Positions 314 to 27,370 of a stretch of DNA of 27,370 nt are shown piece after piece. The translations under genes and the position numbers were made by a program. How positions within the stretch are numbered: position 1 is the first letter of the stretch; the number at the start of each line of letters is the position of its first letter. The notes beneath the pieces are model-generated. The model searched no databases, was not told where the DNA came from, and saw only the letters and a program-made list of their open reading frames with translations. Source of the DNA: a bacterium (GTDB taxonomy: Bacteria > CAIWAD01); the NCBI GenBank assembly GCA_030685015.1, contig JAUXWS010000015.1:1-27370 (forward strand), given 5' to 3'.

Positions 314-352
314 CCAAACGAAAGAGGGCCGCGTCGCGGCCCTCTTCATGCA
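314..352 (-). terminator. Rho-independent terminator of the histone-like gene and intron insertion target
   Basis: Positions 322-333 and 335-346 form a perfect inverted repeat (AAGAGGGCCGCG / CGCGGCCCTCTT). On the minus strand it is followed by TTTCGTTTGG. It begins a few bases after the stop codon of the Lys/Ala-rich gene (355-357), so it ends that transcript. The group II intron begins at 313, immediately after the T-rich tail. Confidence 0.9.
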
Positions 353-354
353 GG

Positions 355-861
355 TCAGGATTTGCCTTCCAACAACTCCCGGACCCAGGTGCTGACGGTT
401 TTCTTGCCCGCCTTGCGTTTCAACTGGGCCATGGTCTTCTCGGAAAGGCGCACGTGCAGCACGGAGCTCAACTGAGCTTCGTGCTTGCCGGCAGGAGCAG
501 GTTTGTCGGAGCTGCCGGACTTCTCATCACCGGCCTTCGCCTTGGGCGTGCTCTTCCTGGCGCCCGGTTTGGTGGCGGGCTTGGCCGGAGCCTTCTTGGC
601 GGCCGGCTTCTTCGCCGCCACCTTCTTGGCGGCCGGCTTCTTCGCCGCCACCTTCTTGACGGCCGGCTTCTTGGCCGCCACCTTCTTGGCCGGAGCCTTC
701 TTGGCGACTGCCTTCTTGACGGCCGGCTTCTTGGCCGCCACCTTCTTGGCCGGGGCCTTCTTGGCAACCGCCTTCTTGGCCGGAGCCTTCTTGGCAACCG
801 CCTTCTTGGCCGCAGGCTTGGCCGCCTTCTTGGCCGGAGCTTTCTTCACCGTTGCGTTCAT
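355..861 (-). CDS. Histone-H1-like Lys/Ala-rich protein with C-terminal ribbon-helix-helix domain
   Basis: The protein is 168 aa. The ATG at 861 is chosen because AGGAGG (872-867) lies five bases upstream; an in-frame ATG at 915 has no such site and adds 18 unrelated residues. Residues 1 to about 100 are a low-complexity tail of AAKK, PAKK, AVKK and KKPA repeats, as in eukaryotic histone H1 tails and bacterial H1-like proteins. A polar linker follows, and residues 131-168 (from [12 protein letters not shown] to VRELLEGKS) read as a ribbon-helix-helix fold: one strand and two helices. Known H1-like bacterial proteins bind DNA through the basic tail, and RHH domains dimerise and bind operators. 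I infer a nucleoid-associated protein with a dimerising or sequence-specific module. The gene is monocistronic, with a promoter at 943-971 and a terminator behind it. The repeats are also visible in the DNA, so copy number may vary between strains. Confidence 0.85.
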
Positions 862-879
862 GGAGACCTCCTTTAAGGT

Positions 880-992
880 GTGATACGAGGGAAGCATCCC
901 CTTGTTCGGGTCCATGCATCGCGGTGATACATGTTGGATCCGAAACTACTCTGATTGAATGAGCATGTCAAGAGTGTTATCGGTTGTATCAC
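880..992. promoter_or_regulatory. Three copies of GTGATAC around the promoter; candidate operator
   Basis: GTGATAC occurs at 880-886 and 924-930 on the plus strand and inverted (GTATCAC) at 986-992. The second and third copies extend to GGTGATACA / TGTATCACC, a 9-bp inverted repeat that brackets the predicted -35 and -10 boxes. The first copy lies in the untranslated leader. Such an arrangement could be an operator for autoregulation by the RHH domain of the downstream protein, but this is inference. Confidence 0.35.
943..971 (-). promoter_or_regulatory. Putative sigma-70-type promoter of the histone-like gene
   Basis: On the minus strand, TTGACA (971-966) is followed after 17 bases by TAGTTT (948-943). 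The -35 box is perfect; the -10 box matches TATAAT at only three positions. It lies about 80 bases upstream of the start codon, between hflX and the histone-like gene, in the only AT-richer stretch nearby. Confidence 0.5.
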
Positions 993-9142: not shown

Positions 9143-9232
9143 GATCGATATCGATATCGATATCGATATCGGGATCGGTATCGGTATCGGGATCGGTATC
9201 GGGATCGGGATCGATAGCGATAGCGATTGCGG
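9143..9232. repeat. Hexanucleotide microsatellite between purM and alaS
   Basis: About 15 tandem 6-bp units fill the spacer between purM and alaS. The units follow the pattern (T/G)A(T/G)CG(A/G): four TATCGA, then TATCGG and GATCGG in mixed order, then TAGCGA twice. TATCGA copies are self-complementary with their neighbours (ATCGAT, GATATC) and could form hairpins in the alaS leader. Both strands are open in at least one frame, but I see no coding role. Unit copy number is a candidate for slippage. Confidence 0.92.
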
Positions 9233-26264: not shown

Positions 26265-27103
26265 AAATGCGCCGCGTCGTGTGACGCACCCGCTCCTTCA
26301 GCTTGTCCTGGGCTTTCTTGGCCACCCGGCGCTTCACCCCACCGCCGGGTCCCAGCCAGAAGCTGTAACCCAGCACCTTGCGACGCGTCGCCAGATCCAC
26401 CGCGCTCTTAGCCTCGTTCACCTTCAGATGGAGTCCCGTGAGCAGCCGCCGCAACCAGCCCATCACCCGTTCCCCGGCCCGACGGCTTCACACATGGACG
26501 TTGCAGTCGTCCGCGCAGCGGATGAAAGCGTGGCCCCGGCCTTCCCGTTCCCGGTCCACCTCGTCCAGCAGCACATTGGCCAGAAGCGGCGACAAGGGCC
26601 CGCCCTGCGGCGTGCCCTCGTGCCGTTCCACCGCCACCCCGCCGGATAGCAGCCCGGCCTTCAGAAACCGTGCCGCGAGAAGGTCGGGTCGAACAGCGGC
26701 TGCAGGACCTGAAGCAGGGCCTGCTGGATGAAACGGTCCAGCACGGTCGGGATGCCCAACCGGCGCATCTCGCCCTTGCCTTTCGGGATGAGCGCCTCCT
26801 TCACCGGCGACGGCTGGCAGGTGCCCGACAGCCAGCGCTCCCGGATCGCGTCCCAGTTCGCCCGCAGGTGGTCGGCCAACTCGCCCACCGTCATCCCGTC
26901 GATGCCGGGACTGCCCTGGTTGGACCGTACCCGTTTCTGCGCGGCCAGCAGGTTCGGACGCAGCAGCATCCGCTCCAGCAGGTCGCCCGTGCCTGGGCGC
27001 TCGCTCTCCCTCGTCGCCGTCGGCGTTTCCCCACTCCGCCCCCTGTCGGGGCTTCACCCCTATCCGGGAACGGGAGCTCCAGCTGACTGGACATCTGTGG
27101 CAT
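26263..27103 (-). pseudogene. ltrA-like: Group II intron reverse transcriptase/maturase, disrupted
   Basis: Four lesions are visible. It starts at MPQMSSQLELPFPDRGE (27103) in one frame, shifts to a second frame around 27000 (GTGDLLERMLLRPNLLAAQ), and reads RVRSNQGSPGIDGM to PLFDPTFSRHGF before a stop at 26661. A third frame resumes at FLKAGLLSGG, with GTPQGGPLSPLLANVLLDE and CADDCNVHV, where YADD is changed to CADD. The block normally between FSRHGF and FLKAGLL, with the first catalytic Asp motif, is missing. A TGA at 26490-26488 replaces an Arg codon, after which SRRAGERVMGWL to VRHTTRRI continues in the same frame. The protein ends early, directly at domain V, so the last part of the maturase is absent. 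Full-length relatives have about 400-440 residues. The gene is not functional as read. Confidence 0.88.
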
Positions 27104-27191
27104 GACGCTTCCGAGATCTGGGCCGTCCCGCCCTTCCATTCGTTCGGCCCTTCCCCGCTCCAACTGCGGGTACTACGGCCTCGGCTGACGT

Positions 27192-27370
27192 CCCGCTCCG
27201 CCCGTCGCCCGGCGTGGCCCTTTCAGGCCCAAGGCGGGATCTCCCCAGCCAAGAACACCGTCCTTCACCGCACGATGGCCGGATCTACGCCGCCTGGACC
27301 TTGACCATCGGAGCTTTGCGATCCTGTGCCCGCTCGCCCTGTCCGGCGTCGCCTCCTATCCGGTTCTTGT
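27192..27370. repeat. Right copy of the terminal direct repeat (intron 5' region), partner of 1-178
   Basis: Bases 27192-27370 align to 1-178 with one indel and roughly a dozen or more substitutions. Both belong to the 5' RNA half of group II introns in the same orientation. They are related but not identical, so this is not a circular overlap of one sequence. Confidence 0.9.

Follow-up and report, generated by a model that had tools for sequence, protein, structure and literature searches.

The fusion gene and its surroundings

The window, which is the whole 27,370-nucleotide stretch of bacterial DNA analysed here, contains on its minus strand a gene at 355..861 (ATG at 859-861, stop TGA at 355-357) for a fusion protein with a histone-H1-like tail at its N-terminus and a ribbon-helix-helix (RHH) domain at its C-terminus. 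The 168-aa product has a pI of 11.0, and its charge is computed as +46. The coordinates given for this open reading frame by the original prediction were confirmed, and the strand proved to be minus. Because the Shine-Dalgarno sequence AAAGGAGG (867..874, minus) stands 5 nt upstream of the ATG at 861, this ATG was considered to be the true start. An alternative in-frame ATG at 915 was rejected, as its first 18 codons correspond to the promoter-proximal leader and the Shine-Dalgarno sequence precedes 861.

The gene had also been claimed to possess its own promoter and terminator, and signals of both kinds were found. The promoter TTGACA-N17-TAGTTT (943..971, minus) is also present in the related genome G001 and has the TAGCTT form in G003, so that the consensus TTGACA-N17-TAGYTT is kept in three genomes; a sigma-70 scan found no promoter for the fusion gene. 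The leader element ACATGTATCACCGCGAT (918..934, minus) lies 8-10 nt after the -10 hexamer and is conserved across genera. Its consensus, ACATGTnnyACCGyGAT, contains the near-palindrome ATCAC-C-GTGAT and has only this one perfect match in each of the window genome (G000), G001 and G003. The element at 918-934 is a candidate operator. An inverted GTGATACA...TGTATCAC pair flanking the promoter was set aside as probably coincidental: the other genus lacks its first copy, which overlaps the stop codon of hflX.

Downstream of the stop codon, the sequence reads as a perfect, GC-rich terminator hairpin of 11 bp, AAGAGGGCCGC-GAC-GCGGCCCTCTT (322..346, minus; core -19.9 kcal/mol). Its T tract is weak, because a group II intron begins with GTGCG at 313, 8 nt beyond the hairpin. 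This placement would be expected of class C group II introns, which insert behind terminators. Copies of the intron occupy both contig ends (1-313 and ~26488-27370, minus) and match at 93% identity over 179 bp; at the right-hand end, the reverse transcriptase looks broken across frames.

Two further observations were made around the locus and in the window. A convergent neighbour encoding 55-70 aa was seen in L005 (1783-1995, minus), L013 (~487-690, minus) and L006 (1085-1249); its C-terminus (ENELVEIMQLIAFPEPDKYLDLIKQICNTQKIDRRRVHKID) is nearly identical in two genera, and it gave no Pfam match above cut-off. Elsewhere in the window, 14 ATCGAT-like hexamers are arrayed at 9144-9227, between purM-like and alaS genes.

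The H1-like tail and the C-terminal domain

The N-terminal tail comprises residues 1-107 (541..861, minus), with 39 K, 37 A, 13 P and no D or E, which gives a computed charge of +39.5. KK recurs with a period of 5 residues, 15 times between positions 19 and 89, and a 15-bp DNA repeat array at 580-813 (detected by TRF) matches this repeat. The tail scored 45.5 bits against Pfam HC2 (PF07382; cut-off 40), a family whose matches rest largely on composition. The equivalog level of hist_H1_lk_Burk (NF038053) was not reached by the fusion protein (42.3 bits against a cut-off of 80), and the other Pfam listing was a low-scoring extensin match. The long AAKK/PAKK tail first noticed in the sequence was thus borne out by the HC2 score, the KK period and the absence of acidic residues. 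A linker of mixed charge follows (residues 108-129; 475..540, minus), which is conserved within the genus and absent from the other genus.

The RHH domain (residues 130-168; 358..474, minus) was delimited from an ortholog alignment, profiles and predicted structures. When searched as a single sequence against Pfam, NCBIfam and PDB, the window C-terminus gave no significant match; the best Pfam match was NikA-like (E 0.072, below significance), nothing meaningful was returned from the PDB, and a PHROGs search yielded a single weak match to a DNA binding protein (E 0.078). The ortholog L012, from the genome G003 of another genus in the same family, passes Pfam RHH_1 (PF01402) with 20.7 bits against a cut-off of 20.5, and its nearest Pfam profile is CopG_antitoxin (PF12441, E 1.2e-4). 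For this reason the missing match of the window domain was not taken as a refutation; and as that domain reaches only E 0.07 against the nearest Pfam family, the RHH call leans on L012. The loop between the two helices is 2 residues shorter in the window genus than in L012, which may account for the weak Pfam score of the former.

Profile-profile comparison was made with an RHH set consisting of four textbook members and three RHH_1 matches from the window genome. Against this set, hhalign gave E values of 0.0016 and 0.00022 with the strand and both helices (A and B) aligned in register, and the score against RHH sequences was reached by none of 300 column shuffles.

The predicted structures agree with this assignment. 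AlphaFold gave a ribbon strand, VLHVRLS (residues 134-140; 442..462, minus; extended, pLDDT ~90), followed by helices at residues 141-151 (409..441, minus) and 156-167 (361..396, minus). In model positions of the AF2 prediction, the window domain is extended at 24-33 and helical at 34-44 and 49-60, with pLDDT ~90. The AF2 model of L012 likewise has an extended strand and then helices at 75-88 and 92-102 (pLDDT 77-90). Its best structural match is the CopG/DNA complex 1ea4 at a low Z of 4.0 (2.7 A over 36 residues), and RHH proteins make up most of the matches listed. For the window-domain model, AtaR and Reg576 were found at a low Z of 2.3, level with TCP domains; Foldseek returned weak matches only (E above 2), and none that was significant among viral models. 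Taken together, the L012 score, the strand-helix-helix prediction in both proteins and the shuffles uphold the RHH domain that the original prediction had placed at the C-terminus, the profile search being significant through L012. We conclude that the window C-terminus is very probably a divergent but genuine RHH domain.

Conservation and distribution of the fusion

The tail-RHH fusion is present in all four genomes of the family examined, so the search for the same architecture in other genomes found it conserved. The copies in two species of the window's genus are 75-84% identical across the final 58 residues; the copy in G003 (L012) is diverged. The gene adjoins hflX in the window, G001 (L014) and L012, while the locus in G002 is cut at the contig end. 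Meanwhile, the promoter and the ACATGT leader occur together once per genome in the window genome, G001 and G003. Based on the hflX neighbour and this unique promoter and leader, the genes of the window, L014 and L012 are orthologs.

The RHH domain is under purifying selection, with dN of 0.11-0.15 against dS of 1.1 (dN/dS ~0.1). Tail length varies among orthologs (61, at least 82, 107 and 156 residues). The residues V134, H136 and R138, which alternate along the predicted strand, are invariant in all four orthologs. RHH strand positions such as those in Arc and CopG touch DNA bases. Invariant positions also lie in the second predicted helix, namely S157, which opens helix B, and V160, R161 and L164 within it.

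Outside these four genomes the combination was not encountered. A domain-profile scan of the contigs of 84,980 genomes, resting on one short peptide pattern, returned three relatives only, and among 386 genomes, mostly of other lineages, strong domain-profile matches were confined to this family. The fusion gene is absent from the same-class genome G004, which is 67% complete, and no relative of the domain was found in viral contigs, plasmids or phages. H1-like tails by themselves occur in 52 of the 386 genomes. No RHH domain was found on any of 25 tailed ORFs scanned in up to 386 genomes, and no H1-like tail at any of 60 RHH loci read; samples of this size leave room for the fusion elsewhere. 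In the open-access literature, we came across no account of an H1-like/RHH fusion.

H1-like tails occur widely as additions to unrelated proteins. Tailed ORFs in other genomes (L025, L029, L030, L032, L033 and L035) include ObgE, FlpD (N-terminal), a PEP-utilising enzyme and ribosomal protein L30, and the remaining ORFs among the 25 have no partner domain. As tails are carried by ObgE, PEP-utilising enzymes, FlpD and L30, a tail by itself need not point to a nucleoid role. A 'bacterial linker histone' (L049; genome G138, contig 69) was rejected as eukaryotic contamination, since histone H3 and H4 genes adjoin this histone H1.

Proposed function and comparison with known systems

The fusion is probably a small dimeric nucleoid-associated protein, whose RHH domain sits on DNA while its tails condense it, and which is perhaps autoregulated. 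The C-terminal RHH domain would form the dimer, whose two-stranded ribbon would dock in the major groove by means of H136 and R138. Each subunit would contribute an N-terminal tail of about +40, and these two tails may run along or bridge neighbouring DNA, neutralising its charge and thereby condensing or bridging it. The RHH part would provide both the dimer and some site preference, and therefore local compaction could begin at chosen sites. The protein would be abundant, and the conserved element shortly after the -10 may allow it to repress the promoter of its own gene. AAKK-type tails bind DNA in mycobacterial HbhA and HupB (PMC10665949), AlgP peptides of Pseudomonas bind DNA as well (PMC9239181), and SegB, an RHH protein, both compacts DNA and forms loops in it (PMC12284271). 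It should also be considered that the window genome has four HU/IHF-type matches, so DNA packing would not be the task of the fusion protein alone.

A wider significance can be imagined. Bacterial H1-like proteins are generally regarded as binding DNA with no preference for sequence, and joining such a tail to a usually sequence-specific, dimeric class of domain would provide a point from which condensation could start. The fusion might then represent a new class of bacterial nucleoid protein, limited to one obscure family, in which H1-like condensation is nucleated at chosen chromosomal sites by a site-specific RHH dimer that also regulates its own amount, a possibility that we regard as rather doubtful. 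Since the tail and RHH parts are short and separable, the effect of an H1-like tail on a DNA-binding domain is directly testable in vitro.

Four other explanations were weighed. The protein might act only locally, as a CopG-like repressor that controls its own gene and perhaps a few others, and in which the polylysine tail merely raises general DNA affinity and speeds sliding without any structural role in the nucleoid. Many plasmid RHH proteins are autorepressors, and ACATGTnnyACCGyGAT lies right behind the -10, none of the three genomes having a second perfect match. However, every ortholog carries a tail of 61-156 residues, more than the 40-residue domain itself, which appears excessive for a small affinity aid and makes a purely local role unlikely.

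A granule-chromosome tether resembling AlgP/PhaF, with the tail on polyphosphate or DNA and the RHH domain on the chromosome, is improbable. AlgP, a well studied H1-like protein, sits at polyP granules and needs its tail for spacing (PMC9239181). By contrast, no phasin or AlgP domain was detected in the fusion protein by Pfam at E up to 10, and its two putative DNA-binding parts leave only the tail itself as an obvious granule binder.

A C-terminus folded as a short helical hairpin of some kind other than RHH is very improbable. Such a reading could draw on the lack of a significant single-sequence match of the window domain in Pfam, NCBIfam or PDB and on a loop 2 residues shorter than usual, but the orthology to L012, which passes RHH_1, the shared strand and helix pattern and the shuffle test all speak against it. 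Last and least probable is an orphan antitoxin-type RHH protein whose tail was gained by repeat expansion and which has little function left: although CopG_antitoxin is the profile nearest to L012, purifying selection acts on the domain, the gene is preceded by a conserved promoter of its own, its neighbours (hflX and, in relatives, the convergent 55-70 aa gene) include no known toxin, PADLOC gave no match, and no adjacent co-directional toxin gene was found at the fusion locus, where the window side ends in the group II intron, or in relatives.

Read as a dimeric nucleoid-associated protein, the fusion can be compared with several known systems. Its domain resembles the CopG/MetJ-Arc type of RHH (PF01402, PF12441) in the strand-helix-helix of about 40 residues, and its ortholog passes RHH_1 and aligns best to CopG; unlike that type, the domain is divergent, has the shorter loop of its genus, and lies C-terminal to a long H1-like tail with no toxin partner. 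The histone H1-like proteins of the HC2/HctB and BpH1 type (PF07382, NF038053) consist of the tail only. The fusion shares their Lys/Ala/Pro repeats and strongly basic character and exceeds the PF07382 cut-off, but a folded RHH domain follows its tail and NF038053 reaches only 42 against 80. AlgP/PhaF of Pseudomonas also carry an H1-like tail on a folded part; theirs is of the KPAA type, whereas the fusion has KK every 5 residues, an RHH rather than a helical/phasin domain, and the opposite order of parts.

In HupB (HU plus an AKKA/PAKKA tail) and HbhA of Mycobacterium, the folded parts are a dimeric HU or a coiled coil. The fusion is like them in combining a folded part with an AAKK tail, which in HupB and HbhA binds DNA (PMC10665949), and differs in that its partner domain is RHH and its tail is N-terminal. 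SegB of Sulfolobales has an RHH DNA-binding domain at its C-end, as does the fusion, but it is archaeal and works with SegA; it compacts and loops DNA and binds upstream of its own genes (PMC12284271). A folded domain joined to an H1-like tail is a kind of protein already known. We know of no H1-like tail on SegB, and the tail-RHH fusion puts known parts together in a new way, within a single bacterial family.
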